This document shows, in pieces, positions 34,305 through 48,647 of a stretch of 64,000 nt of DNA. Location of the stretch: positions 1,426,001-1,490,000 of the forward strand of contig NZ_CP049331.1 in the NCBI RefSeq assembly GCF_011064285.1, written 5' to 3'. The notes below the pieces were generated by a model. It searched no databases, was not told where the DNA came from, and worked only from the letters and a program-made list of their open reading frames with translations. Every line of letters starts with the position of its first letter. Position 1 is the first letter of the stretch. Origin of the DNA: Vibrio ziniensis (lineage in GTDB: Bacteria > Pseudomonadota > Gammaproteobacteria > Enterobacterales > Vibrionaceae). The translations under genes and the position numbers were made by a program.

Positions 34305-35198
34305 CTACAAAATGCATTTCTGAACCTCTTTAATCAGCCATTGAACGCTGTCTTGGCTATCGTATAGCTGATGAGTAAAAATACTCAGCGATAGTTCAGG
34401 AGTGCCTTCTGGCAACTCTACAATCCTTACTGGCAGCATTTTGCACAGTTCTGTCGCGATTCTAAGGGGAACACACATTAAATTGTTGGTATTTGATATT
34501 ACACGGCCACCCACAGCATAGCTTTGAACAATCATCGAAATATGTCGCGCTTGATGTTGTTCCAGTAGCCATCGGTCAATCGGATCGGCACCAGAGTTGA
34601 TTAACGGCAAGTGAACCTGAGGCGTTTCAAGAAAAGCTTTAAATGTCAGTTTGTTGGGAAGAGGATTGTCGTTAGCAACGATGCCAACGTATGGGTCGGT
34701 TAGCCAATGATAGCGATGGTAATAACGAGGCATCGATTGTAATTGATCTACACCTAAAGTTAGGTCGATACGCCCTTGCTCTACTCGCTCCATCTGCATA
34801 TTTTCAGACAGAATTTCAATAGCAATTCTGACGTTTGGCGCACTCTCTTCCAATGCTTTTCCTAGTCTTGGTAAAGCATAAAATTCAAAGTAATCAATGG
34901 CGCCGATATAAAAGGTTTTTGCATCCACGCTCGGATTAAAAGGCTTAGTTTTGGCTAATGCCATGTCGATCGAAGATAGCCCTTTTTGGATGTCCGGAAG
35001 CAGCATTTGTACCAGTGGAGTGGGTTCCATACCTGTACGAGTTTTGACGAAAAGTGGGTTGTCAAAACGGTCTCTCATCTTAGACAAAACGTGGCTTGCG
35101 GCAGATTGGCTCATAAACATTTTCTGAGCCGCTTTTGATAAGTTTCTTTCTTTTTCCAGTACGACTAACAATCGCAGTTGGTTGATGTCCATATCCAT
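34305..35198 (-). CDS. LysR-family regulator, probably of the agmatine operon
   Basis: 297 residues. Helix-turn-helix near residues 6-63 (NLSKAAQKMFMSQSAASHVL) and LysR effector domain with FYIGAIDYFEFYALPRL near residue 97. Divergent from aguB with about 105 bp between the starts, so it most likely controls the agmatine genes. The effector could be agmatine or N-carbamoylputrescine, by inference from position only. Confidence 0.9.
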   Translation of the reverse strand: MDMDINQLRLLVVLEKERNLSKAAQKMFMSQSAASHVLSKMRDRFDNPLFVKTRTGMEPTPLVQMLLPDIQKGLSSIDMALAKTKPFNPSVDAKTFYIGAIDYFEFYALPRLGKALEESAPNVRIAIEILSENMQMERVEQGRIDLTLGVDQLQSMPRYYHRYHWLTDPYVGIVANDNPLPNKLTFKAFLETPQVHLPLINSGADPIDRWLLEQHQARHISMIVQSYAVGGRVISNTNNLMCVPLRIATELCKMLPVRIVELPEGTPELSLSIFTHQLYDSQDSVQWLIKEVQKCIL

Positions 35199-35304
35199 AG
35201 GTTATCGAAATTCCTCATATGAAAATAAAAATATTGCATTTCAATAATAACCACATAACCGTTAAAAATATCAACAGATTTTGACTACAAATTAAGGGAA
35301 TAAA

Positions 35305-36186
35305 ATGAGAAAAGTCACTGTTGCCGCGACTCAGATGTCATGTTCGTGGAATGTTGAAGAAAACGTAGCTAAAGCTGAACAGCTTGTACGCGAAGCTGCT
35401 GCGCAAGGAGCACAAGTCATTCTTTTACAAGAACTATTTGAAACTCCGTACTTCTGTATTGAAATCAGTGAGGGCTACCATAAGTTGGCTTCTACACTGG
35501 AAGAAAACGATACTTTCAAAAGGCTTACTGCGTTAGCAAAAGAACTGCAAGTTGTTTTGCCATTTAGCTGGTTTGAAAGAGCAGGGAACGTCAAGTTCAA
35601 CTCCGTTGCCGTGATTGATGCCGACGGCTCACTGTTGGGTGTATATCGCAAAACTCATATTCCAGATAGCGATGGCTACCTAGAAAAATACTACTTCAGC
35701 CCAGGTGATACTGGCTTCAAAGTGTGGGATACACGCTATGGTCGCATTGGTATTGGAATTTGCTGGGATCAATGGTTCCCTGAAACTGCGAGAAGTATGG
35801 CGCTGCAAGGCGCGGAACTGCTGTTTTATCCAACGGCGATTGGTAGCGAGCCTAGCCAGCCACAATTAGATTCACAACCAGCATGGCAAAACGCGATGCA
35901 AGGCCATGCGGCTTCTAACATTATGCCCGTTATTGCTTCCAACCGAATTGGTCGCGAGCAAGCACAAACCCGCGATTTGGAAATCAACTTCTTTGGTTCA
36001 TCTTTCATTGCTAATTACAACGGTGAAATTCTGGCAAAAGCCGATCGTGAGACTCAAGGCATTCTTATTCATGAATTCGATCTCGACGAAATTGCATTCC
36101 AACGTAGCGCATGGGGGCTGTTCAGAGATCGACGCCCAGACCAATACAAACACCTTTTAACACTGGATGGGCAACTAAAGGACTAA
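35305..36186 (+). CDS. aguB: N-carbamoylputrescine amidase
   Basis: 293 residues of the nitrilase superfamily. The catalytic triad is visible: Glu in LLQELFETPYFC (residue 43), Lys in YRKTHIPD near residue 117, Cys in GIGICWDQWFPETARS near residue 153. The FETPYFC and DQYKHLLTLDG segments are typical of AguB. It splits N-carbamoylputrescine into putrescine, CO2 and ammonia, the second step of agmatine degradation, in the cytoplasm. First gene of the agu operon; the permease follows after 4 bp. Confidence 0.95.
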   Translation: MRKVTVAATQMSCSWNVEENVAKAEQLVREAAAQGAQVILLQELFETPYFCIEISEGYHKLASTLEENDTFKRLTALAKELQVVLPFSWFERAGNVKFNSVAVIDADGSLLGVYRKTHIPDSDGYLEKYYFSPGDTGFKVWDTRYGRIGIGICWDQWFPETARSMALQGAELLFYPTAIGSEPSQPQLDSQPAWQNAMQGHAASNIMPVIASNRIGREQAQTRDLEINFFGSSFIANYNGEILAKADRETQGILIHEFDLDEIAFQRSAWGLFRDRRPDQYKHLLTLDGQLKD

Positions 36187-36190
36187 TGTC

Positions 36191-37582
36191 ATGGAAGACA
36201 AAAAAATGGGCGTGACGCCTCTAGCTCTGTTCAGCTTATGTGCGGTGTTAGTGGTGGATACGTTAACGGCATCAGCGTCAATTGGTGTCAGCTCGCTAGG
36301 ATGGTGGGCGCTAATGTTGGTGGTATTCGTACTTCCATATGGATTGATTACTTCTGAACTCAGTTCTGCTTATCCGGGCGAAGGTGGTATCTACGACTGG
36401 GTGAAACGTGCTTTTGGTCCGCGTTGGGCTATTCGCACTACATGGTTCTACTGGATTAACGTTGGCTTGTGGACGCCAGCGGTATACATCCTTTTCGCGG
36501 GTACATTTGCCGAGCTGTTTGCGCCTGATCTTTCATTGTTTGCTCAAGTGATCATGTGCGTTGCTCTGACTTGGCTAACCGTTTGGGTTTGCAACATTTC
36601 CGTTGATATTGGCGTTTGGGTAACTAACTTCTGCGCCGTATTAAAGGTAATCATCATTTCTGTGTTAGGTATTGGTGGATTCATCTATGCCGCAAAAAAT
36701 GGTGTTGCCAACGAATTCACTTTTGAAGCTGTGTTGCCATCTTTCGATTCTGGCGTCGCCTTTCTTCCTGCTTTGGTCTTCAACCTAATGGGCTTTGAGC
36801 TTGTGGCTACCATGACTAAAGAGATGAAAGACGTTAAGCAAATGCCAAAAGTCGTATTTCTGGCAATGACGGTAACGGCTCTGCTTTATGTACTTGGTAC
36901 GTTAGGCATTCTGATGGCACTACCTGTGGAAGAGGTCGGCCTGGTTGCAGGCATCGTCGATACGTTGAAAGTCTTGTTTGGTGATGGTGCATTCGGTCAG
37001 TTCATGACTTACGCACTGGGCATTGTGACTTTGATTACCTTCATCGGAAACATGGTGAGTTGGACAATGGGTTCAAGCCGCGCTGCTGCTGAATCTGCAC
37101 GTGATGGTGAACTTCCTGCTGCATTAGGCAAAACTTCAAGCCGTTACTCAACACCGGTAGGGGCGAATGTAGGTACAGGGTTGGTATCCACCGCGGTAAT
37201 CGTAGTGTATGCGCTCTTTGCAAGCAGTAATGATGAACTGTTCTGGTCTATCTTTGCGTTCTCAAGCTGCGTGTTCTTAGTGCCATATCTATTTATGTTC
37301 CCAGCGTACTTAAAACTTCGCGTGTCAGATGCTGATCGTTTACGTCCTTTTAAGGCTCCGGGCAACATGGCCACACAAACGGCTATGACGGTGATATGTT
37401 TCTTCATCATTCTTCAGGCTGTCGTGCTGTTCATCTTCCCTGATGTGATTTTCGGATCAGTGGATTGGCAATATACCGCGCCAGTTTTAGCGGGTGTTAT
37501 CGTAACGGTTGTGATTGGTGAGCTTTTACTGAAGCGTGCGCATTCTCAAACTGAATCATCGGATGTGAGAGGTATAGCATGA
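36191..37582 (+). CDS. APC-family amino acid/polyamine permease, probably agmatine-related
   Basis: 463 residues with about twelve membrane segments. SSAYPGEGGIYDWVKRAFG near residue 57 is the APC signature in the first transport repeat. It starts 4 bp after aguB and its last four bases overlap aguA (ATGA), so all three genes are translationally coupled. Context points to agmatine import or agmatine/putrescine exchange. The sequence alone does not prove the substrate. Confidence 0.88.
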   Translation: MEDKKMGVTPLALFSLCAVLVVDTLTASASIGVSSLGWWALMLVVFVLPYGLITSELSSAYPGEGGIYDWVKRAFGPRWAIRTTWFYWINVGLWTPAVYILFAGTFAELFAPDLSLFAQVIMCVALTWLTVWVCNISVDIGVWVTNFCAVLKVIIISVLGIGGFIYAAKNGVANEFTFEAVLPSFDSGVAFLPALVFNLMGFELVATMTKEMKDVKQMPKVVFLAMTVTALLYVLGTLGILMALPVEEVGLVAGIVDTLKVLFGDGAFGQFMTYALGIVTLITFIGNMVSWTMGSSRAAAESARDGELPAALGKTSSRYSTPVGANVGTGLVSTAVIVVYALFASSNDELFWSIFAFSSCVFLVPYLFMFPAYLKLRVSDADRLRPFKAPGNMATQTAMTVICFFIILQAVVLFIFPDVIFGSVDWQYTAPVLAGVIVTVVIGELLLKRAHSQTESSDVRGIA

Positions 37583-38673
37583 GTAAAACATTAGAAGGCT
37601 TACCTAAAGATCTTGGCTTTCACATGCCTGGTGAACACGAACCGCAAAGTGAAGTGTGGATGGCATGGCCGGTACGCAGTGACAACTGGCGATTTAGCGG
37701 CAAGCTAGCTCAGCAAGCATTTGTCGAGGTTGCCACTGCGATTTCAAAGGCTACACCCGTCGTGATGTTGGTTGCTCGAGAACAATACTCCAATGCACGA
37801 GCTCAGTTGCCTGATCACATCAAAGTGGTGGAAATGTCATACAACGATTGCTGGATGCGCGACATTGGAGCAACTTATGTTGTGAATAGTGAAGGGCAAC
37901 GAGCAGGTGTTGACTGGCATTTTAATGCATGGGGTGGCTTGGTTGATGGTCTCTATTTCCCTTGGGATTTGGATGATGCCGTAGCCGATAAAATGGTGAA
38001 CTTGACTGGTGATAACCTATTTAAAGCGCCTCTGGTATTAGAGGGTGGCTCTATTCATAGTGATGGTGAGGGAACCATTTACACCACTGAAGAGTGTTTA
38101 CTTCATCCAAGTCGTAACCCTGATTTGTCTAAACAAGAGATTGAAGCATTGTTGCTGGATTATCTCGGTGCTGAGAAAGTCATATGGCTGCCAAACGGTT
38201 TATACAATGACGAAACCAACGGACATGTGGATAACATCATGCACGTAGTGAAAGCTGGTGAAGTCGCTCTAACTTGGTGTGACGACGTGAATGATCCTCA
38301 ATATAAAATCAGTCGTAAGGCTTACGATGTGCTCAGCACGCAACTTGATGCTAAAGGACGAACTATCAAGGTGCATAAGTTGCCGATGCCAGGTCCACTG
38401 TACATTGAAGAGCATGAAGCTTTTGGTATCGATCAAAGTGAAGGAATGGAGCGTGAAGCCGGAGAGCGTCTAGCGGCGTCCTATGCAAACTTCCTCATTA
38501 CCAATAGCAGAATTGTGTTTCCTTTATTGGATGCCAGTTACGATCTGCTTGCCAAAGCCGTGTTACAAGAAGCGTTTCCGAATCATGAAGTGGTTGGCGT
38601 AAATGCTCGAGAAATACTGCTAGGTGGGGGTAATATTCACTGTATTACTCAGCAGGTTCCAAGTCTGATTTAA
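37579..38673 (+). CDS. aguA: Agmatine deiminase
   Basis: 364 residues, the family length. Guanidino-group-modifying fold: CWMRDIGATYVVN near residue 92 (Asp), ETNGHVDNIMHVV near residue 212 (His), and the catalytic Cys in GGGNIHCITQQ at about residue 357. It converts agmatine to N-carbamoylputrescine and ammonia, feeding AguB. Last gene of the operon, with a strong terminator 33 bp later. The aguB-first gene order is fine for coupled function. Confidence 0.96.
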   Translation: MSKTLEGLPKDLGFHMPGEHEPQSEVWMAWPVRSDNWRFSGKLAQQAFVEVATAISKATPVVMLVAREQYSNARAQLPDHIKVVEMSYNDCWMRDIGATYVVNSEGQRAGVDWHFNAWGGLVDGLYFPWDLDDAVADKMVNLTGDNLFKAPLVLEGGSIHSDGEGTIYTTEECLLHPSRNPDLSKQEIEALLLDYLGAEKVIWLPNGLYNDETNGHVDNIMHVVKAGEVALTWCDDVNDPQYKISRKAYDVLSTQLDAKGRTIKVHKLPMPGPLYIEEHEAFGIDQSEGMEREAGERLAASYANFLITNSRIVFPLLDASYDLLAKAVLQEAFPNHEVVGVNAREILLGGGNIHCITQQVPSLI

Positions 38674-38706
38674 AACCAGATTAAGATTTCAGACGAAACC
38701 ACACTG

Positions 38707-38752
38707 CGCACTAAAGTGATGATAACTTGCATTGCTTTGGTGCGTTTTTTTT
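38707..38752 (+). terminator. Rho-independent terminator of the agu operon
   Basis: Ten-bp stem with one wobble pair (CGCACTAAAG / CTTTGGTGCG), an 18-nt loop, then eight T. It separates the agmatine operon from the guanidine operon. Confidence 0.85.
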
Positions 38753-38904
38753 AGGCGTTTTAATTTAAATCCTTTTAAAACATGCAATTATAAGTTGGCA
38801 TGGTCATTGCCTGAGTTAGTTCAACATTACAAATGTTAAAGCAATTAGTTGCGATGAGCATAACTGAGTGAAACACCACAACTAATCACAATTTGATTAA
38901 ATAG

Positions 38905-38996
38905 ACATCTAGGGTTCCGGCTGCAACGCAGTGTCTGGTCCGAGAGTTGTCAACCTCTTATGAGGTCACACGGCGGGACAAAAGCCCGGGAGGCCA
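38905..38996 (+). promoter_or_regulatory. Guanidine-I (ykkC) riboswitch
   Basis: All conserved blocks of the ykkC guanidine-I aptamer are present in order: TCTAGGGTTCCG (38909-38920), TGGTCCGAGAG (about 38936-38946), a short hairpin ACCTCTTATGAGGT (38953-38966), then ACACGGCGGGACAAAAGCCC (38968-38987) and GGGAGG. It lies in the leader of the ABC-transporter/carboxylase operon, about 65 bp before the binding-protein start. Guanidine binding should switch the operon on. A 7-bp stem (AACCAAT / ATTGGTT, 38996-39012) follows the aptamer and may belong to the expression platform. No T-run follows it, so control of translation or a different pairing is possible. Confidence 0.95.
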
Positions 38997-39062
38997 ACCA
39001 ATTTCATTGGTTATGCTCTCGCGTTAATGTTTTTAAAAGTGACTCACATTGGAGGTGATCCT

Positions 39063-40139
39063 ATGAAACCAACCTTTAAACACTCCCTAACCGCATTAGC
39101 GTTGTCTGCTAGCGTACTAGCTACTCCTTTTATTTCTCAATCAGTTCAGGCTGAAGAAAAGTCGGAATTTACCGTCGCTTGGTCAATTTATGCAGGCTGG
39201 ATGCCATGGGATTATGCTGCTTACTCTGGCATTATGGATAAATGGGCGGAAAAATACGGTATTAAGGTCAACATCGTACAGGTGAATGACTATGTAGAAT
39301 CCATCAACCAGTACACAGCGGGTCAATTTGACGCAACAGTAATGACCAATATGGATGCTTTGACTATTCCTGCTGCTAGTGGAGTGGATTCAACCGCACT
39401 GATTGTTGGTGACTTCTCTGACGGTAACGATGGTATCGTCCTTAAAGGTGCCAAATCTCTGAAAGATGTCAAAGGGCAGAACATCAACCTTGTTGAATTG
39501 AGCGTTTCTCACTACCTAATGGCCCGTGCTCTTGAAAGTGTAGGTTTGTCTGAGAAAGATGTAAATGTTGTCAACACTTCTGATGCCGATATCGTAGCGG
39601 CATTCAGCACAAAAGATGTGACTTCAGTGGTGACTTGGAACCCATTGTTAAGTGAAATTACCGCTCAGCCAAATACTTCTCTGGTTTTTGACTCTTCAAA
39701 AATTCCCGGTGAAATCATCGACCTGATGATTGCTAACACCGAAACCTTACAAGACAACCCTAAACTGGGTAAGGCTCTTACCGGAGCATGGTATGAAATC
39801 ATGGGCATCATGACATCAAAATCAAAAGCCGATGAAGCGAAAAGTTACATGGCTAAACAGTCTGGTACTGACTTAGCAGGTTATAACCAGCAACTCGCCG
39901 CAACGTTTATGTACTACAAACCCTCAGACGCGGTGACTTTTACCAATGGTGCAGATTTGAAAGAGACCATGAAAAAAGTTGCTGAATTCTCTTTTGATCA
40001 TGGCTTGTTGGGTGAAGGTGCGCCAGATGCGGGTTTCATTGGTATTGAAACCCCTTCAGGTGTTTACGGTAATGCAGACAACATCAAACTGCGTTTTACG
40101 GCTGATTACATGGATATGGCAGCTAAAGGCGAGCTTTAA
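39063..40139 (+). CDS. ABC transporter periplasmic substrate-binding protein (guanidine/urea operon)
   Basis: 358 residues from ATG 39063, preceded by the strong ribosome site GGAGGTGATCCT; an upstream Met in frame has none. Signal peptide about residues 1-30 (ending SVQAEE). The body is a NitT/TauT-type type-2 periplasmic binding fold, with FTVAWSIYAGWMPWDYA at the start of the mature chain. It is the first gene after the guanidine-I riboswitch, so it probably binds guanidine or a related nitrogen compound such as urea in the periplasm. Its own permease and ATPase follow directly. Confidence 0.9.
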   Translation: MKPTFKHSLTALALSASVLATPFISQSVQAEEKSEFTVAWSIYAGWMPWDYAAYSGIMDKWAEKYGIKVNIVQVNDYVESINQYTAGQFDATVMTNMDALTIPAASGVDSTALIVGDFSDGNDGIVLKGAKSLKDVKGQNINLVELSVSHYLMARALESVGLSEKDVNVVNTSDADIVAAFSTKDVTSVVTWNPLLSEITAQPNTSLVFDSSKIPGEIIDLMIANTETLQDNPKLGKALTGAWYEIMGIMTSKSKADEAKSYMAKQSGTDLAGYNQQLAATFMYYKPSDAVTFTNGADLKETMKKVAEFSFDHGLLGEGAPDAGFIGIETPSGVYGNADNIKLRFTADYMDMAAKGEL

Positions 40140-40192
40140 TCTACGGTGAAAACCACCCATAGCGTTATTAGCCAAAGTGAATTGGAGAAACT

Positions 40193-41014
40193 ATGAGTAA
40201 ACTCATCAACCGCCACCCATCTCGATATGGACGATTGATGTTGGGAGTGCTGCCATTTGCGATATTAATTGCGTTGTATGTGGTCGCTTCCGATGCCCGA
40301 TTAGCGATCAACCCAGCCGATAAACTGTTACCAGCATTTAGCAGCTTTTTCGAAGCAATTGATCGTATGGCGTTTACTCCCAGTAAACGGTCTGGCGAGT
40401 ATCTGCTATGGGTTGACACCTGGGCGAGTCTTCAACGCTTAATGTGGGGTGTTGGTCTGAGTGCATTAGTCGGTTTGTCGATTGGCATTGCCAATGGAAT
40501 GCTACCTTTGGTGCGCTCTACCTTGTCACCTGTTGTAACCGCGATTTCGTTAATTCCACCAATGGCTATCCTGCCAATACTGTTCATCACCTTTGGTTTG
40601 GGTGAGTTGTCTAAAGTGGTGCTTATTTTTATTGGTATCTGCCCGATCATCGTAAGGGACATACAACTGAAAGCCGCATCCTTACCTCAAGAGCAGTTGA
40701 TCAAAGCTCAGACATTAGGCGGCAATAGCTGGCAGATCATTCTGCGAGTTGTACTTCCACAAATTGTTCCACGATTGATTGAAGCCATTCGCCTAACTCT
40801 GGGCAGTGCATGGCTGTTTCTTATCGCAGCGGAAGCCATTGTTGCAACTGAAGGTTTGGGATATCGAATCTTTCTGGTTCGTCGTTACATGTCGATGGAT
40901 GTGATTCTTCCTTACGTTTTATGGATCACCATATTGGCTTACACCATGGATTGGTTGCTAAAGCAGTTATCGCTAAAACTTAGCCCTTGGTATCACCAGA
41001 GTCAGGGAGAATAA
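40193..41014 (+). CDS. ABC transporter permease (guanidine/urea operon)
   Basis: 273 residues, about six membrane segments, with the EAA loop near residues 165-182 (LIKAQTLGGNSWQIILRVVL) that docks the ATPase. SsuC/TauC-type permease. Ribosome site TTGGAG. The ATPase gene starts 1 bp after its stop, so they are co-translated. Confidence 0.92.
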   Translation: MSKLINRHPSRYGRLMLGVLPFAILIALYVVASDARLAINPADKLLPAFSSFFEAIDRMAFTPSKRSGEYLLWVDTWASLQRLMWGVGLSALVGLSIGIANGMLPLVRSTLSPVVTAISLIPPMAILPILFITFGLGELSKVVLIFIGICPIIVRDIQLKAASLPQEQLIKAQTLGGNSWQIILRVVLPQIVPRLIEAIRLTLGSAWLFLIAAEAIVATEGLGYRIFLVRRYMSMDVILPYVLWITILAYTMDWLLKQLSLKLSPWYHQSQGE

Positions 41015-41015
41015 G

Positions 41016-41795
41016 ATGGAAAAGCCAATTATCGAAGTGAAACAGGTGTGGAAAGAGTATGGCGATAACATCGTACTTGAGCATCTCAACCTTAAAGTGT
41101 TACCGGGTGATTTCGTCAGTATTGTCGGAGCATCTGGATGTGGCAAAACGACTTTCCTCAATATGCTTTTAGGCACTGAGCAGCCTTCACGAGGACAGAT
41201 TTTGCTCGATGGAGAAGCGCTTTCAGCTGAGCCAGGTGTAGAGCGTGGCATTGTGTTCCAGAAATACTCTGTATTTCCTCATTTGACGGCTTTGGAAAAC
41301 GTGATGCTTGGGCATGAATTTGTTCATGGCGATCTCAGTTCAAAACTCCTCGGTCGCTCTTTTGGTGCTAGTAAGCAGCAAGCCAAGCAACAAGCGCAGG
41401 CGATGTTGAAAGAAGTGGGGTTGAGTGACGCTCAGAATAAATACCCACATGAGCTTTCCGGCGGTATGCGTCAGCGTTTGTCTATTGCTCAGGCTTTGAT
41501 TAAAAAGCCCCGCATCTTACTTCTTGACGAACCTTTCGGCGCACTAGATCCGGGTATTCGCAAAGATATGCATGCGTTAGTTAAGAAGCTGTGGAGCGAA
41601 CAGAAACTAACAGTATTTATGATTACACACGACTTGAGCGAAGGCTTCCATTTAGGCAACCGCCTTTGGGTGTTTGACCACACCCGCGTAGATGAACAAG
41701 CCCCAGAACGTTTTGGCGCTCGAGTTACGTTTGATATTGCACTTGATAAGAAAGAACAAGTAAGTGCAGTAAAACAGCAACTTCAAGTTGCTTAG
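41016..41795 (+). CDS. ABC transporter ATP-binding protein (guanidine/urea operon)
   Basis: 259 residues. Walker A GASGCGKTT near residue 38, signature LSGGMRQRL near residue 148, Walker B ILLLDEPFGALD near residue 167, and H-loop ITHDLSEGF near residue 205, all intact. SsuB/TauB-type subunit that powers the importer. Followed by a DUF1989 gene after 9 bp with a TAGGAGA ribosome site. Confidence 0.94.
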   Translation: MEKPIIEVKQVWKEYGDNIVLEHLNLKVLPGDFVSIVGASGCGKTTFLNMLLGTEQPSRGQILLDGEALSAEPGVERGIVFQKYSVFPHLTALENVMLGHEFVHGDLSSKLLGRSFGASKQQAKQQAQAMLKEVGLSDAQNKYPHELSGGMRQRLSIAQALIKKPRILLLDEPFGALDPGIRKDMHALVKKLWSEQKLTVFMITHDLSEGFHLGNRLWVFDHTRVDEQAPERFGARVTFDIALDKKEQVSAVKQQLQVA

Positions 41796-41804
41796 GAGAA
41801 TAGG

Positions 41805-42536
41805 ATGTCCGATACCAACTCAATTTTTACTGATGTGATTCCCGGTGCGGCGCACTGGTCGATGACGATGAAAAAAGGCACAGTCCTCAAGCTTAAAGAC
41901 TTAGAGGGCGGCGCCAATGTCAGCATGCTTTTTTACAATCCAACTAACCTGCTAGAGCGTTATAACGCGCCGGATACATTGAAGTGTCAGCATACGTTTA
42001 AGCTTACTACCGGACACTGTCTGTATTCAGACATGGGGCATGTGTTCTGCTCAATTGTTCGTGATGATACAGGTTGGATAGATACCGTTTGTGGTGTCGC
42101 CAACAAACAAAAAGTGACCGATAAATGGGGCGCTCGTGACTATCAGGCAGACCGAAATCAATGGAAGCAAAATGGTTATGATGCGCTGCTAGTTGAAGTA
42201 GCTAAGTATGGATTGGGCAAACGTGATTTAGCGGCGAATCTTAATCTGTTTAGTGCGGTAAAAACCAATGAAGTTGGTGATATGGCTTTTGCCGAACAAC
42301 ACAGCAAAGCAGGGGACTGTATTGAACTTCGCTTCGAAATGGACACTTTAGTTGTCTTCACTACTTGTCCGCATCCAATGAATCCAGCCAAAGATTACCC
42401 ATTTAAGCCGGTTGAGTTTTCTGTTTATGAAGCTGAACCCTTAGCGGCGGATGACCCTTGTTTAACATCGCGCGAAGAGAATGGACGTGGTTTCGAAAAC
42501 AACCGCCGTTTCCATGCTGCGTGTAGCCATCACTAA
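41805..42536 (+). CDS. Urea-carboxylase-associated protein (DUF1989), larger subunit; carboxyguanidine deiminase type
   Basis: 243 residues, related to the next gene. DUF1989 proteins beside such carboxylases were first tied to urea use and later shown, in related bacteria, to form a heteromeric carboxyguanidine deiminase (CgdAB). Potential metal or active-site residues sit in [23 protein letters not shown] (residues 68-84), and [11 protein letters not shown] near residue 185. Placement between transporter and carboxylase, under a guanidine riboswitch, fits conversion of carboxyguanidine to allophanate. I cannot tell which of CgdA or CgdB it is. Confidence 0.88.
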
Positions 42537-42546
42537 GGAGAGAATC

Positions 42547-43194
42547 ATGATTGTAGAAAGTAGTTTACAGGCTGATCAGGCCGTTAGACGCGATATCGTG
42601 CTTGCAGGTGATTACTACATGAAAGTCGTTAAGAAAGGTCAGACGGTGCGTATTTTGGACCTTGAGGGCAATCAGGCAGCAGACACGTTGTTTTATAACG
42701 CCAATGATCCGGGTGAGCGCTACAGTGCGATTGATACCATTCGTGAGCAGGGCAATGTTTACCTCACAGCAGGAACCAAGATTCTTTCTGATCAGGGCAA
42801 TATTATGCTCGAGATCGTGGCTGATACCTGTGGTCGCCATGACACATTAGGTGGCGCTTGTGCAACGGAAAGTAATACGGTTCGTTACGCGATTGAAAAG
42901 AAATGTATGCACGCCTGTCGTGATAGCTGGTTACTTGCGGTTGCAGAGAATGACCAGTACGGAATGAGTAAGCGTGATATCACCCATAACATCAATTTCT
43001 TTATGAATGTTCCAATTACCGCAGATGGTGGATTGACGTTTGAAGATGGTATCAGTGGTGCAGGGAAGTATGTCGAGCTGAAAGCTGAGATGGACGTGAT
43101 TGTTCTGATTTCTAATTGCCCTCAATTGAATAACCCATGTAATGCCTACAACCCGACACCGGTTGAAGTACTGGTGTGGGATACAGCGGCTTAA
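42547..43194 (+). CDS. Urea-carboxylase-associated protein (DUF1989), smaller subunit; carboxyguanidine deiminase type
   Basis: 215 residues from ATG 42547, with AAGGAGAG just before it, ten bases past the previous gene. Shared core with the larger subunit: [19 protein letters not shown] near residue 36, [17 protein letters not shown] near residue 96, and [12 protein letters not shown] near residue 195. The two probably assemble into one deiminase. The gene is followed, before the carboxylase gene, by a guanidine-II riboswitch motif. Confidence 0.88.
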
Positions 43195-43208
43195 TCGCTC
43201 TAATGAGT

Positions 43209-43256
43209 CGGGGACGACCCCATTCAAGGCTCAAAAGGATCAACGGGACGGCCCGC
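43209..43256 (+). promoter_or_regulatory. Guanidine-II (mini-ykkC) riboswitch inside the operon
   Basis: Two small hairpins with the ACGR tetraloops that define this class: GGGG-ACGA-CCCC (43210-43221) and CGGG-ACGG-CCCG (43244-43255), joined by a 22-nt linker. Both stems are perfect. It fills the gap between the smaller DUF1989 gene and the carboxylase gene and ends 18 bp before the carboxylase ATG, as expected for control of translation initiation. The weak ribosome site TTGGA (43263-43266 region) lies just after the second hairpin. The motif is short, but two matched ACGR hairpins in a guanidine operon are unlikely by chance. Confidence 0.88.
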
Positions 43257-43273
43257 AAAATTTGGATTTGCTT

Positions 43274-46200
43274 ATGTTTAACAAGGTACTAATTGCTAAC
43301 CGTGGCGCAATAGCATGCCGAGTCATCAGAACTCTAAAAAAATTAGGCGTGACAAGTGTGGCGGTATACAGCGAAGCCGATGCTCAGAGCTTACATGTAG
43401 TGCAGGCAGATGAGGCATACTCCTTGGGTGTAGGCGCTGCATCTGCAACCTACCTCGATCAGCAACGCGTGATTGAAATTGCAAAACAATGTGGCGCGCA
43501 GGCTATTCACCCGGGTTACGGCTTTTTAAGTGAAAACCCAGACTTTGTTCACTTATGTGAGAAGAACAATATTGTCTTTTTAGGACCGACTCCTGAACAG
43601 ATGAAGGTATTTGGATTTAAGCACTCAGCACGTGAATTAGCCGGACAGGCTGGTGTGCCACTCCTTCCCGGTACACAGCTACTTACTGATATACAGCAAG
43701 CGCTGAGCGAAGCGGAGCGAATTGGTTACCCTGTCATGCTAAAGAGTACTGCTGGCGGTGGTGGTATCGGCATGCAGTGTTGTTATGACCCAGAATCTTT
43801 AGAATCCGCATTCGATTCAGTGAAGCGTCTTAGCCAGAACAATTTCAGTAACAGCGGTGTGTTCTTAGAAAAATTCATTGAGCATGCCCGTCATATCGAA
43901 GTGCAAATATTTGGTGACGGCCAAGGTACGGTAGTCGCGCTCGGTGAGCGTGACTGTTCGGCGCAGCGTCGTAATCAGAAGGTGATTGAAGAGACTCCAG
44001 CACCGAACCTATCCGATGATATTCGTCATTCTTTGCATAGCACAGCGGTGAAACTGGCAGAACAAATCCATTACCGCAACGCTGGTACGGTGGAATTTGT
44101 TTTCGACCAACAAAACGAACAGTTTTATTTTCTAGAGGTCAATACACGCCTTCAGGTAGAGCATGGTGTCACCGAAGAAGTTTTCGGTGTTGATTTGGTT
44201 GATTGGATGGTTCGGTTAGGGGCAGGAGAATTATCAACGCAAGAACTGACCGCGGAAAGACAACCACAAGGGCATGCCATTCAGGTTCGTTTATACGCAG
44301 AAGACGCAAACAAATCCTTCCAGCCATGCGCTGGTTTATTGAGTCATGTTGAATGGCCGGTAGTTGAAGGCTTACGTGTTGAGCATTGGATTGAAGCGGG
44401 AGTAGAAGTCTCGCCATTCTTTGATCCAATGCTGGCGAAAGTGATTGTTCATGGTAAAAACCGCAAAGAAGCGCTATCAAAACTGATCCAATCCCTCGAA
44501 CAAACCAGCATTTATGGTATCGAGCACAACCAAGCTTATCTGCAGCAGCTGCTTACAAACGAACTTGTGCAAAGAGGTGAAGTACTGACACGCAGCTTAA
44601 ATGAGTTCGTTTATCAGCCAACGACACTGGATGTGATTAGTGGTGGTACACAAACCACTATTCAGGATTATCCGGGACGTAAGGGCTACTGGAATATCGG
44701 TGTGCCACCATCAGGTCCTATGGATTCATTAAGTTTCCGTCTTGCAAATCAGCTATTAAATAACGATGAACACTGTGCTGGGTTGGAGATAATTCTTTCT
44801 GGCCCAACACTGAAGTTCAACACTGCTAAACAGTTCGTTGTTACCGGTGCGCACATTGATGCAACGCTAGATGGAACTTCACTAAATCATGGGGAAGTGC
44901 ATTTTGCGCAAGCGGGACAAACACTAAGATTGGGTAAAGTCACTGGTCATGGTGCTCGTAGCTATTTTGCCATCGAAGGTGGAATTCAATGTCCGAATTA
45001 TCTGGGCAGTAAATCGACCTTTACTTTGGGGCTGTTTGGCGGTCACGCTGGCAGAGCGCTACTTGCGGGCGATGTGCTGCATGTTACTGGAACTGCAAGT
45101 ACGGGTGAGTTAGCCGGTAAATCTGGGGTACTTCCTGCAATGGAAGAGTTGTGGGAAATCCGTGTGATGTATGGTCCTCATGGTGCTCCTGATTTCTTTA
45201 CCGATAACGACATTTCGGAATTTTTTGAGGCAACGTGGAAGGTTCACTTTAACTCCAGTCGCACGGGTGTTCGTTTGGTGGGGCCAAAACCACATTGGGC
45301 GCGTCAGGATGGTGGCGAGGCAGGACTTCACCCATCAAACATCCATGACAACGCATATGCAGTTGGGACGATTGATTTCACTGGTGATATGCCTGTGATT
45401 TTAGGCCCAGATGGCCCAAGTCTTGGCGGCTTCGTTTGTCCTGCGACCATTATCAAGGCTGATTTGTGGAAGATGGGACAGCTTAAAGCGGGAGATAAGG
45501 TTCGCTTTATTGCTGTGAGCTTAGAGCAAGCTGAAATGGCGGAGCGTAAACAAAACGCTCAGGTTGAATCCGTTTGTTTTGAGCACATTCCTTTGCAAGC
45601 GTGCGAATGTACAACAGCCGTTGTTCACAGTCTTTCCGCTGAGCAGGTTGGTGAAGACGTAGTGTATCGTTCCAGTGGTGAAGATTTCTTGCTGGTGGAA
45701 TATGGCCCGCAAGTATTGGATATTCGTCTGCGTTTTCGCGTTCATGCTTTGATGCTCAAACTGGAGTCGCTAAAGGTTGCAGGCATCGAGGAGCTGACTC
45801 CGGGTATTCGCTCACTGCAGGTTCATTTTAATAATCTGGTTTTGTCTCGCTGCAAACTCTTATCTCTTCTAGAAGAGTTAGAGCATGAGATGGATGACAT
45901 TGACCAATTACGAGTTCCGGCTCGAATCGTGAACATTCCGCTGTCGTGGGATGACCAAGCAACGCGTTTGGCGATTAGAAAATACGATGAACTGGTTAGA
46001 AAAAATGCACCTTGGTGTCCTGACAACATTGAGTTTATCCGCCGTATTAACGGACTAGATTCCGTAGACGAGGTTAAGAAAATCGTTTTTGACGCTAGCT
46101 ACTTGGTTATGGGGTTGGGGGATGTTTACTTAGGTGCGCCAGTTGCCACTCCTATCGACCCTCGTCATCGATTAGTAACCACTAAATACAATCCTGCCCG

Positions 46201-46885
46201 TACGTGGACACCTGAAAACGCGGTTGGTATCGGTGGTGCATATCTTTGTGTTTATGGTATGGAAGGACCGGGCGGCTATCAGTTTGTCGGTCGTACTTTG
46301 CAAATGTGGAATCGCTACAGACAGACCAAAGAGTTCCAAAAGCCTTGGTTACTGAGGTTCTTCGATCAGATTCGCTTTTACGAAGTAAGTGCAGAAGAGT
46401 TGCTGGATATCCGCAACAAACATCCGCTTGGGCAATATCCGTTAAAAATAGAAGAGACAACTTTCTCCCTTGCGGATTACCAAGCATTGGTTGAAGAGCA
46501 CAGTGACGATATTGCACGTTGTAAACACCGCCAGCAAACCGCTTTCGAAGCTGAACGTCAACGCTGGGTTGAGTCTGGACAGGCGAACTTTGTTGTCGAA
46601 GAAGTCGAAGTCGAACAAGCCGAAGCGATTGAACTACAACATGGCCAAACACTGGTTGAGAGTCAGGTTGCAGGTAACGTATGGCAAGTCGTCGCCCAAC
46701 CGGGTAAAACCGTTCAGGCTGGTGAAGTGATTATGATACTTGAAGCGATGAAGATGGAACTTGAAGTGGTAGCACCATGTTCTGGTGAAATTGCGTATTT
46801 GTGCAGTGAGCAAGGAACACAAGTTACAGCTGGACAACCGCTAATGGTGATCAATGAAATCACTGCAAGTAAAGGAGCAGCATAA
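43274..46885 (+). CDS. uca: Biotin-dependent urea/guanidine carboxylase
   Basis: 1203 residues from ATG 43274 (MFNKVLIANRG). Biotin carboxylase part about 1-445 with the ATP-grasp loop KSTAGGGGIGMQ near residue 157 and EVNTRLQVEHGVTE near residue 287; carboxyltransferase part with KipA-like domain (about 455-765, TIQDYPGRKGYWNIGVPPSG) and KipI-like domain (about 790-1010); biotinyl domain at the end with the EAMKME lysine near residue 1160. It carboxylates urea or guanidine with ATP and bicarbonate. The guanidine riboswitches and deiminase genes favour guanidine, giving carboxyguanidine. Sequence by eye cannot separate the two specificities. Downstream gene begins 1 bp later. Confidence 0.93.
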   Translation: MFNKVLIANRGAIACRVIRTLKKLGVTSVAVYSEADAQSLHVVQADEAYSLGVGAASATYLDQQRVIEIAKQCGAQAIHPGYGFLSENPDFVHLCEKNNIVFLGPTPEQMKVFGFKHSARELAGQAGVPLLPGTQLLTDIQQALSEAERIGYPVMLKSTAGGGGIGMQCCYDPESLESAFDSVKRLSQNNFSNSGVFLEKFIEHARHIEVQIFGDGQGTVVALGERDCSAQRRNQKVIEETPAPNLSDDIRHSLHSTAVKLAEQIHYRNAGTVEFVFDQQNEQFYFLEVNTRLQVEHGVTEEVFGVDLVDWMVRLGAGELSTQELTAERQPQGHAIQVRLYAEDANKSFQPCAGLLSHVEWPVVEGLRVEHWIEAGVEVSPFFDPMLAKVIVHGKNRKEALSKLIQSLEQTSIYGIEHNQAYLQQLLTNELVQRGEVLTRSLNEFVYQPTTLDVISGGTQTTIQDYPGRKGYWNIGVPPSGPMDSLSFRLANQLLNNDEHCAGLEIILSGPTLKFNTAKQFVVTGAHIDATLDGTSLNHGEVHFAQAGQTLRLGKVTGHGARSYFAIEGGIQCPNYLGSKSTFTLGLFGGHAGRALLAGDVLHVTGTASTGELAGKSGVLPAMEELWEIRVMYGPHGAPDFFTDNDISEFFEATWKVHFNSSRTGVRLVGPKPHWARQDGGEAGLHPSNIHDNAYAVGTIDFTGDMPVILGPDGPSLGGFVCPATIIKADLWKMGQLKAGDKVRFIAVSLEQAEMAERKQNAQVESVCFEHIPLQACECTTAVVHSLSAEQVGEDVVYRSSGEDFLLVEYGPQVLDIRLRFRVHALMLKLESLKVAGIEELTPGIRSLQVHFNNLVLSRCKLLSLLEELEHEMDDIDQLRVPARIVNIPLSWDDQATRLAIRKYDELVRKNAPWCPDNIEFIRRINGLDSVDEVKKIVFDASYLVMGLGDVYLGAPVATPIDPRHRLVTTKYNPARTWTPENAVGIGGAYLCVYGMEGPGGYQFVGRTLQMWNRYRQTKEFQKPWLLRFFDQIRFYEVSAEELLDIRNKHPLGQYPLKIEETTFSLADYQALVEEHSDDIARCKHRQQTAFEAERQRWVESGQANFVVEEVEVEQAEAIELQHGQTLVESQVAGNVWQVVAQPGKTVQAGEVIMILEAMKMELEVVAPCSGEIAYLCSEQGTQVTAGQPLMVINEITASKGAA

Positions 46886-46886
46886 A

Positions 46887-48647
46887 ATGGCATTACTAAC
46901 GATTGAGCAATTATTAGCAGCCTATCGTGAAGGTTCAGTCACTCCCTTCGAACTTTTATCTGAGAAGCTGAAGAGCGCGCGAAATGACCAACATAATGCG
47001 TGGATATCTCTCATCAGTGATGAACAGCTTGCACTGTATATCAAAGGGTTAGAAGGATTTAACGTCGACGATTTACCTCTCTACGGCGTACCATTTGCGA
47101 TTAAAGATAATATCGACTTAGAAGGTTTAAATACGACGGCTGGCTGTGTCGAATACACATACCAACCACAACAATCTGCATTCGTGGTTGAGCTTTTGAT
47201 TTCCGCTGGTGCTATTCCTTTAGGTAAGACCAATCTCGACCAATTTGCGACAGGCCTTGTCGGTACGCGCAGTCCTTTTGGCGCGGCAAAAAACAGCTTT
47301 AATCCACAATATATATCTGGTGGTTCGAGTTCTGGCAGTGCAGTGACAGTGGCAACCAATCAAGTCTTTTTCTCTCTAGGAACAGATACAGCAGGTTCTG
47401 GTCGCGTGCCTGCAGGTTTCAACAATATTCTTGGTTTGAAACCAACGAAAGGGACGTTAAGCAGTACAGGACTTGTGCCAGCTTGCAGAACACTGGATTG
47501 CATTACCTTTTTTGCTCGCACTGCCGATGATTTAGAAATTTTGCAAAAAGTGGCTGCTGTTTATGACGACAATGACTGCTACTCACGTGCTTATTTGAAC
47601 TCTCGAGCGCCTGTTGAGTGCCTTTCAGGTCTTAAAGTCGGTGTTCCAAAAGCTGAGCAGTTAGCGTTCTTTGGCAATCAAGAGTATCAGGTTCAGTTTG
47701 AACAGTGTGTGAAGAAGTGGCAGCAGTTAGGCGCTGAACTGATTGAATTTGATCTTTCACCTTTCTTAGATGCTGCTAAGTTACTGTATCAGGGGCCGTG
47801 GGTTGCAGAACGATACGCCGCGATTCAAGGGTTTTTCGATGAAAATAGTTCTGCCTGTTTACCAGTGATTGAAACCATTATTGGTGGGGCGAAATCTCTT
47901 TCTGCGGCAGACACATTTAAAGCTATGTACAAGTTGCAAGAGTATAAAGTCGTTTGCGATAACCTATTGGAGCAAGTAGATGTGGTTCTGACACCAACCA
48001 CAGGTTCTATTTATACGATTGATGAGGTAAACGCCGATCCTATCTCGTTGAATTCCAATTTAGGTTACTACACTAACTTTATGAATTTACTGGATTATAG
48101 TGCTATTGCAGTTCCTGCTTCTTTTGGCCCTTCAGGTTTACCATTTGGTTTTACATTGTTCGCTCCAGCGTTCAGTGACCGCTTCTTAGTATCTATCGCA
48201 AACCGCTGGCAAAAAGCTCAACCTTTACCTTTAGGAGCCACTGGTCAAACTCTTGAACCTCATACGATGATGGAAATTATGGTTTGTGGCGCGCATATGG
48301 AAGGTTTGCCGTTGAATCCTCAGCTTGTTGAGTTAGGGGGAGTACTTAAAGCCAAAACTAGGACTTCTGAGAACTATCGATTTTATGCTCTTGCTGGTGG
48401 CCCACCATATCGTCCTGGATTGGTACGTGATACAGACTCAGGGCAATCAATTGAGGTAGAAGTTTGGCATATACCCACTCAAAGTGTTGGCAGCTTGCTT
48501 GCTCAAATTCCACACCCATTGGGTCTTGGAAGTGTTGAGTTAGAGGATGGGAGATGGGTCAAAGGGTTTATTTGTGAGCCCATTGCTACTAAAGGTGCCG
48601 AGGAAATAACGCACCTTAAAAGTTGGCGTAATTACATCAATAAGTAA
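46887..48647 (+). CDS. atzF: Allophanate hydrolase
   Basis: 586 residues from ATG 46887 with AAAGGAG, one base after the carboxylase stop. N-terminal amidase-signature domain with the Ser-cisSer-Lys triad: Lys in AIKDNID near residue 77, SGGSSSGSAV near residue 150, and GTDTAGSGRVPA near residue 172. A C-terminal domain from about residue 460 (MEIMVCGAHMEGLPLNPQL) is the extra domain of AtzF-type enzymes. It hydrolyses allophanate to ammonia and CO2, completing the pathway: guanidine gives three ammonia in all. Last gene of the operon. Confidence 0.94.
   Translation: MALLTIEQLLAAYREGSVTPFELLSEKLKSARNDQHNAWISLISDEQLALYIKGLEGFNVDDLPLYGVPFAIKDNIDLEGLNTTAGCVEYTYQPQQSAFVVELLISAGAIPLGKTNLDQFATGLVGTRSPFGAAKNSFNPQYISGGSSSGSAVTVATNQVFFSLGTDTAGSGRVPAGFNNILGLKPTKGTLSSTGLVPACRTLDCITFFARTADDLEILQKVAAVYDDNDCYSRAYLNSRAPVECLSGLKVGVPKAEQLAFFGNQEYQVQFEQCVKKWQQLGAELIEFDLSPFLDAAKLLYQGPWVAERYAAIQGFFDENSSACLPVIETIIGGAKSLSAADTFKAMYKLQEYKVVCDNLLEQVDVVLTPTTGSIYTIDEVNADPISLNSNLGYYTNFMNLLDYSAIAVPASFGPSGLPFGFTLFAPAFSDRFLVSIANRWQKAQPLPLGATGQTLEPHTMMEIMVCGAHMEGLPLNPQLVELGGVLKAKTRTSENYRFYALAGGPPYRPGLVRDTDSGQSIEVEVWHIPTQSVGSLLAQIPHPLGLGSVELEDGRWVKGFICEPIATKGAEEITHLKSWRNYINK

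Follow-up and report, generated by a model that had tools for sequence, protein, structure and literature searches.

A Vibrio guanidine-assimilation operon with two guanidine riboswitch classes and a modified P1 in its inner switch

A 64,000-nt stretch of the Vibrio ziniensis genome (contig NZ_CP049331.1, positions 1,426,001 to 1,490,000; hereafter the window, numbered from its first letter) holds a seven-gene operon with RNAs of two unrelated guanidine riboswitch classes: a guanidine-I (ykkC) aptamer at its head and a guanidine-II (mini-ykkC) hairpin pair inside, just before a carboxylase gene. Taken as a whole, the locus is best explained as a guanidine-assimilation operon controlled twice by guanidine, a reading to which we give a probability of about 0.85. 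An earlier note on this DNA, made from its letters alone, had proposed that two guanidine classes share one guanidine-degradation operon with the inner one just before the carboxylase. Conservation across relatives and the signature residues of the carboxylase bear this out, and the interpretation of that note is overall partly supported and largely right.

Two guanidine riboswitch classes in one operon

The two elements occupy the following positions.

38898..38994, plus strand: guanidine-I (ykkC) aptamer (RF00442, 86.1 bits, gathering threshold 63)
43210..43221, plus strand: guanidine-II P1 core hairpin, GGGG-ACGA-CCCC (RF01068 match, double-motif search, conservation)
43244..43255, plus strand: guanidine-II P2 hairpin, CGGG-ACGG-CCCG (RF01068 match, double-motif search, conservation)

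As the earlier note had it, a guanidine-I aptamer lies before the transporter genes. It was found by Rfam scan as a full-length match (model positions 1-107 of 107, E value 5.5e-14), and the 4.65-Mb genome contains no other RF00442 match at E ≤ 0.001. The inner element, placed by the same note between the second DUF1989 gene and the carboxylase gene with coordinates that are right within a few bases, has the exact core expected of its class, i.e. two ACGR loops (ACGA and ACGG) on G-C stems of 4 bp. Searches for the double motif GGGACGRCCC-N5-30-GGGACGRCCC gave one match in the window, one in the whole genome and none in 100 dinucleotide shuffles; the reversed pattern is missing from the genome.

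Strong evidence comes from relatives. In a family sample of 296 Vibrionaceae genomes, the window's own included, 35 encode a TIGR02712 carboxylase above the cut-off, and 34 of these carry an ACGR-loop hairpin pair no more than 220 nt upstream of the gene. Guanidine-I above its cut-off is likewise present in 34 of the 35. The single miss is the same genome (G052) for both, and its carboxylase (L082) has the urea-type Asn discussed below. This is the conservation of both hairpins that the earlier note had named as a check on its proposal, and it makes two unrelated RNA classes over guanidine assimilation the rule among sampled Vibrionaceae that have the pathway. Of 80 named loci, the 11 closest, which overlap in part with the genomes of the family sample, were inspected for riboswitches: eight show both elements, two (L006 and L008) guanidine-I only and one (L009) neither by the patterns used. 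A different layout is seen in a Vibrio relative (L195, G264:C1:1938500-1950500), where the carboxylase and two upstream DUF1989-sized genes share a strand and guanidine-I is no more than about 1.9 kb upstream, and four other genes on the opposite strand may encode a transporter.

The dual-switch arrangement is also widespread among 274 genomes sampled across the class. TIGR02712 was found at E ≤ 1e-200 in 22 of these (19 above the cut-off), guanidine-II at E ≤ 0.01 in 23 (16 above the cut-off) and guanidine-I in 22. By coordinates, guanidine-II lies directly upstream of the carboxylase in 12 of the 22; eight of these (G000, G296, G314, G402, G433, G466, G479 and G489) also have a same-strand guanidine-I 3-5 kb upstream, the other four being G338, G343, G422 and G440. 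Elsewhere (L206 and L220, G321:C9), two same-strand guanidine-I elements about 5 kb apart, each followed by a textbook terminator, precede a TIGR02712 carboxylase.

The genes of the operon are as follows.

39063..40139, plus strand: ABC transporter substrate-binding protein (TIGR03427, 545.5 bits, cut-off 333.9)
40193..41014, plus strand: ABC transporter permease (PF00528)
41016..41795, plus strand: ABC transporter ATPase (PF00005)
41805..42536, plus strand: DUF1989 gene UAAP1 (TIGR03425, 319.8 bits, cut-off 205.95)
42547..43194, plus strand: DUF1989 gene UAAP2 (TIGR03424, 338.7 bits, cut-off 284.7)
43274..46885, plus strand: guanidine carboxylase (gca; TIGR02712 'urea carboxylase', 1830.1 bits, cut-off 1303.85)
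46887..48647, plus strand: allophanate hydrolase (TIGR02713, 758.5 bits, cut-off 511.05)

UAAP1 and UAAP2 are presumably the carboxyguanidine deiminase subunits CgdA and CgdB, on our assumption of how the UAAP and cgd names correspond. The allophanate hydrolase begins one base past the carboxylase stop. The carboxylase start was set at 43274 by homology; upstream of this its frame has no stop as far as an ATG at 43142, a stretch (43142-43274) that includes both hairpins.

Despite the family name 'urea carboxylase', the 1203-residue product of this gene bears both signature residues of a guanidine carboxylase, as judged by alignment. In yeast urea amidolyase (3va7), the residue aligned with D701 is the Asn at 737, which a hand count with the 3va7/5i8i chain offset equates with Kluyveromyces lactis 1330; the Asp of the window was seen again in a second residue scan. 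The D of the motif VMGLGD aligns with 3va7 D991, which a hand count equates with K. lactis 1584. Asp at both 1330 and 1584 is the published criterion for guanidine carboxylases in the available part of that report (PMC11410670), and Asp versus Asn is also given as the guanidine/urea discriminator in the accessible text of a review (PMC12186494). The residue scan took 133 inputs, with some genomes represented twice, and saw the motif in 64 of them (61 Asp, 3 Asn); at least three loci with an Rfam guanidine-II directly upstream (L173, L174 and L184) escaped its hairpin rule. One exception to the association of Asp with riboswitches is a carboxylase from outside the Vibrionaceae (L181, G489), which has the urea-type Asn and yet both guanidine-II and guanidine-I upstream.

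Directly upstream of the operon, window positions 34305-38745 hold an agmatine-degradation cluster, which comprises a LysR-type regulator (minus strand, below the family cut-off), N-carbamoylputrescine amidase AguB, an amino-acid permease and agmatine deiminase AguA and is closed by a terminator-like hairpin at 38706-38745. Agmatine is a guanidino compound. A SAM/SAH match at 39892-39953 (23.7 bits, cut-off 40) lies inside coding sequence and was taken as chance, as were the CRISPR and MS2 matches of a low-threshold Rfam scan, also within coding sequence.

A modified P1 in the inner switch

The Rfam guanidine-II model has one uninterrupted P1 stem. At the inner site, by contrast, the short P1 core is followed by a one-sided bulge and an outer helix, formed by the 5′ flank and the beginning of the linker between the hairpins; the uninterrupted P1 is a feature of the Rfam model and may not define the class.

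43204..43209, plus strand: P1 outer helix, 5′ strand UGAGUC, pairing with 43228-43233 (own-versus-swapped test)
43222..43227, plus strand: one-sided 3′ bulge AUUCAA, 6 nt (spacing analysis)
43228..43233, plus strand: P1 outer helix, 3′ strand GGCUCA (own-versus-swapped test, spacing analysis)

The outer helix was tested in 34 distinct sequences (30 from Vibrionaceae and four from other Gammaproteobacteria, L003, L004, L005 and L011) by scoring the best helix between each 5′ flank and its own linker against the score obtained with partners swapped among sequences. Own pairings score 12.9 versus 10.3 for swapped ones. The difference grows when the set is thinned to 19 sequences (13.4 vs 9.4, the largest of 20,000 permutations reaching 12.0) or reduced to one per coarse clade (17 sequences; 13.6 vs 9.6, largest of 50,000 permutations 12.5), and it is also seen with only the first 16 linker bases (13 sequences; 13.5 vs 9.4, largest permutation 13.0). 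As a negative control, the 5′ flank paired with the region past P2 gives 5.4 for own and 5.4 for swapped partners (p 0.53, 19 sequences). The pairs vary on both sides: UGAGCA/UGCUCG, GGGCU/AGCCC, CACGC/GCGUG, UAAGCC/GGCUUA and GAGGA/UCCUC all occur, i.e. the helix covaries. A permutation test was used rather than a formal count of covarying pairs; in the MAFFT alignment, made without eight sequences that lack a bulge or carry a large insert, no gaps were opened, and sequences whose bulges differ in length do not line up.

From the outer helix to P2 there are 8-13 nt (standard deviation 1.1), compared with 18-55 nt (standard deviation 9.5) between P1 and P2, in 32 of the 34 sequences; L113 and L143 were dropped from this range, another helix having scored higher in each. 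In most relatives the bulge has 5-8 nt; it reaches 15-40 nt in one genus (g3), where predicted folds often place an extra hairpin in it, and is missing in L005 (Methylophaga). Plain P1 stems exist in the same lineage: two Vibrio genomes (L193 in G132 and L194 in G253) have a second guanidine-II with an unbroken P1 of 6 bp. Among 17 other class-sample guanidine-II entries from outside the window, P1 has 5-12 unbroken pairs in 14 and four in three (L153, L162 and L167), in a comparison to which seven of the 25 class loci contributed no entry. The second guanidine-II of L193 and L194 (48.3 and 46.4 bits) precedes a 105-residue gene that by eye resembles an SMR/Gdx-type exporter.

The inner P1 of this clade is built from a core of 4-5 bp, a one-sided 3′ bulge and an outer helix that uses the start of the linker and ends 8-13 nt before P2. 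Tentatively, and at somewhat less than even odds, the inner switches of Vibrionaceae carboxylase operons and a few relatives may form a distinct structural subtype defined by this P1 (bulge of 5-8 nt, or of 15-40 nt often with a hairpin) and its covarying outer helix. The 'flexible linker' would then be mostly structured and would open or be strained when the hairpins kiss, and the inner sensor would be tuned differently from the head sensor. The linker is described as flexible and 7-40 nt long in the available text of one study (PMC7544219), and the same part of this 2020 source calls P1-P2 pairing unproven. As the distance from outer helix to P2 varies so little, it could serve to test directly how P1, P2 and the linker are arranged in the kissing complex. 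No description of a bulged P1 with an outer helix was found in a literature check that covered passages of PMC7544219, PMC9561414 and PMC5486947; the check was not exhaustive and had the original 2017 biochemical paper outside its scope.

Possible modes of action and rival explanations

The most likely mode is layered positive control, in which the head aptamer permits expression of the operon and the inner pair raises translation of carboxylase and hydrolase. Guanidine would stabilise the head aptamer, whose 3′ strand is otherwise predicted to be drawn into a hairpin further downstream; with the head switch on, the importer, the carboxyguanidine deiminase subunits, the carboxylase and the allophanate hydrolase would be expressed. 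Inside the operon, guanidine would bind the ACGR loops of P1 and P2 and let the two hairpins kiss, and kissing would increase translation of the carboxylase along with that of the hydrolase gene starting one base after it. The enzyme of the ATP-spending step would then be produced only when guanidine has lasted until reading of the message reaches this point. Regarding other signals around the inner switch, no sigma-70-like promoter was detected in 43000-43300, which says little because none was detected in the head region either, and the sole terminator-like site of the scan of 43000-43300 corresponds to P2 in minus-strand orientation.

The results that speak against a double control by guanidine concern the Rfam score and folding of the inner pair, the outer helix, the end of the head switch and the Shine-Dalgarno region. 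The covariance check suggested by the earlier note counts against the inner pair. RF01068 does match the inner site over its full length (43206-43256, plus strand, model positions 1-48 of 48), but at 26.7 bits it stays below the gathering threshold of 32 (E value 0.043 in a 10.4-kb search and 0.0046 in the genome), so that there is no call either at that threshold or genome-wide at E ≤ 0.001. The window's site is not alone in this: of 34 family sites, 19 pass and 15 fail, and those of genus g3 reach only 14.6-25 bits. The gathering threshold is a detection rule, not a biochemical feature, and it misses nearly half of the Vibrionaceae inner switches. The outer-helix P1 probably contributes to the weak scores; it is not the whole reason, because 19 family sites do pass.

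Moreover, the inner region folds no better than its shuffles (z 0.02, -1.18 and 0.74 for 91, 58 and 126 nt). Low scores and a lack of folding excess are what one would see if the inner hairpins had arisen by chance or were functionless, decayed remnants. Such a reading is nevertheless highly improbable given the double motif's absence from the shuffles, a same-class element at the homologous site that has been probed in another genus and, as a strong point, the presence of the pair at the same site in all but one of the family genomes that have the gene. Because of this conservation, which outweighs the sub-threshold score, we accept the pair as a real guanidine-II element.

For the outer helix, three points call for caution. 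When each sequence is compared with shuffles of its own flanks, p 0.05 is reached in only 15 of 33, and in one of these (L113) by a different helix; the sequences in which the helix was first spotted by eye are part of the test set; and as the sequences are related, the permutation results should not be read as exact probabilities.

At the head switch, the question is how the aptamer would act on expression. The 3′ end of the aptamer can pair with a downstream segment.

38987..39034, plus strand: alternative hairpin of CGGGAG (38987-38992, aptamer 3′ end) with CTCTCG (39016-39021), and a T5 run at 39030-39034 (RNA fold)

The 145-nt head stretch as such has a folding z of -0.95 against shuffles. 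An anti-aptamer helix of at least 5 bp is found in 35 of 36 unique guanidine-I tails, but read by eye, a run of at least four T follows it in only five (the window, L003, L116, L133 and L137); a textbook intrinsic terminator is therefore not general in these tails. Other Gammaproteobacteria do have one after guanidine-I (L198, L200, L206, L217 and L220, among 25 unique class tails). These figures would fit a head switch that works in this clade through Rho or through translation of the first transporter gene, with no intrinsic terminator. We regard this as possible though rather doubtful: the window itself has its T5 eight bases 3′ of the helix, a looser rule (five T in 8 nt) is passed by 22 of the 36 tails compared with nine of the 25 in the class set, and guanidine-I is usually a transcriptional switch according to the available text of the review (PMC12186494). 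Termination at the head switch is therefore an inference, and the idea of the earlier note, a first switch that would open the operon as a whole, is plausible.

For the inner switch, the point at issue is the link to translation initiation. The ribosome-binding site is weak.

43263..43266, plus strand: weak Shine-Dalgarno-like TGGA, 7 nt 5′ of the carboxylase start (picked by rule)

Separate translational control of the carboxylase, as the earlier note had suggested, agrees with the mode proposed for guanidine-II in the parts of the literature covered, but no anti-Shine-Dalgarno helix reaches significance here. A candidate helix of this kind that encloses P2 appears in the minimum-energy folds of several relatives (L117, L118, L135 and L140); its own-versus-swapped p values are 0.078 (34 sequences) and 0.092 (19), and it is not claimed. 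Forcing P1, P2 and the outer helix to form leaves the predicted accessibility of the Shine-Dalgarno sequence, chosen by a crude rule, unchanged (Wilcoxon p 0.43 and 0.23 in 33 sequences).

An alternative is that the outer helix itself is the switching element: it would form without guanidine and be opened by kissing, since the 8-13 nt left before P2 would not bridge two collinear stems, after which its 3′ strand and the linker would pair anew. Kissing aligns the stems, and a 14-nt linker must span 49 Å, according to the available text of Huang et al. (2017), compared with the 8-13 nt left here, and by eye UCAAA at the 3′ strand of the window's helix could pair with UUUGG of the Shine-Dalgarno region. 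On the other hand, the 6-nt one-sided bulge could bend the helix aside and leave kissing possible, and anti-Shine-Dalgarno pairing is not significantly conserved; we regard this alternative as rather unlikely. Layered positive control, with the inner pair acting on carboxylase translation through kissing, remains the preferred reading.

Comparison with known systems

The earlier note knew of no described case of the internal arrangement, a view that published work overturns. The available text of the review reports the same layout for three enterobacteria (PMC12186494), and the accessible part of a 2025 study describes Vreelandella boliviensis with guanidine-I in the 5′ untranslated region and guanidine-II between cgdB and gca (PMC12508155). 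As the arrangement is already known, what is new here is modest: the lineage-specific architecture of P1 and the matching gap in Rfam detection.

Compared with guanidine-I riboswitches (ykkC) in general, the head element is again a full-length aptamer above the Rfam threshold at the start of an operon, with the difference that the alternative hairpin is seldom trailed by a run of at least four T in the tails read. Like the guanidine-II (mini-ykkC) RNAs of Pseudomonas aeruginosa and Escherichia coli, as described in the covered parts of the respective studies (PMC9561414, PMC7544219, PMC5486947), the inner element has two ACGR-loop hairpins upstream of a guanidine gene. The part of the P0 proposal for P. 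aeruginosa that pairs the 5′ flank with the region past P2, as far as the accessible text sets it out, finds no support in these sequences, as this was the pairing of the negative control.

The enterobacterial loci, likened here by the description in the available source text, associate importer and carboxyguanidine deaminase genes with guanidine-I, followed directly by a guanidine-II unit of carboxylase and allophanate hydrolase, as in the window. For V. boliviensis, in-line probing in the accessible part of the study gave a dissociation constant of about 44 µM guanidine for the head switch, with no binding of methylguanidine in the tested range, and of about 93 µM guanidine and 83 µM methylguanidine for the inner switch (PMC12508155). 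Its operon differs in including mgdH and mgdL, which are linked to methylguanidine and have no counterpart among the seven genes here. With this system, going by the same part of the source, the Vibrio operon shares the same two riboswitch classes in the same two places, the inner switch standing directly before the carboxylase.

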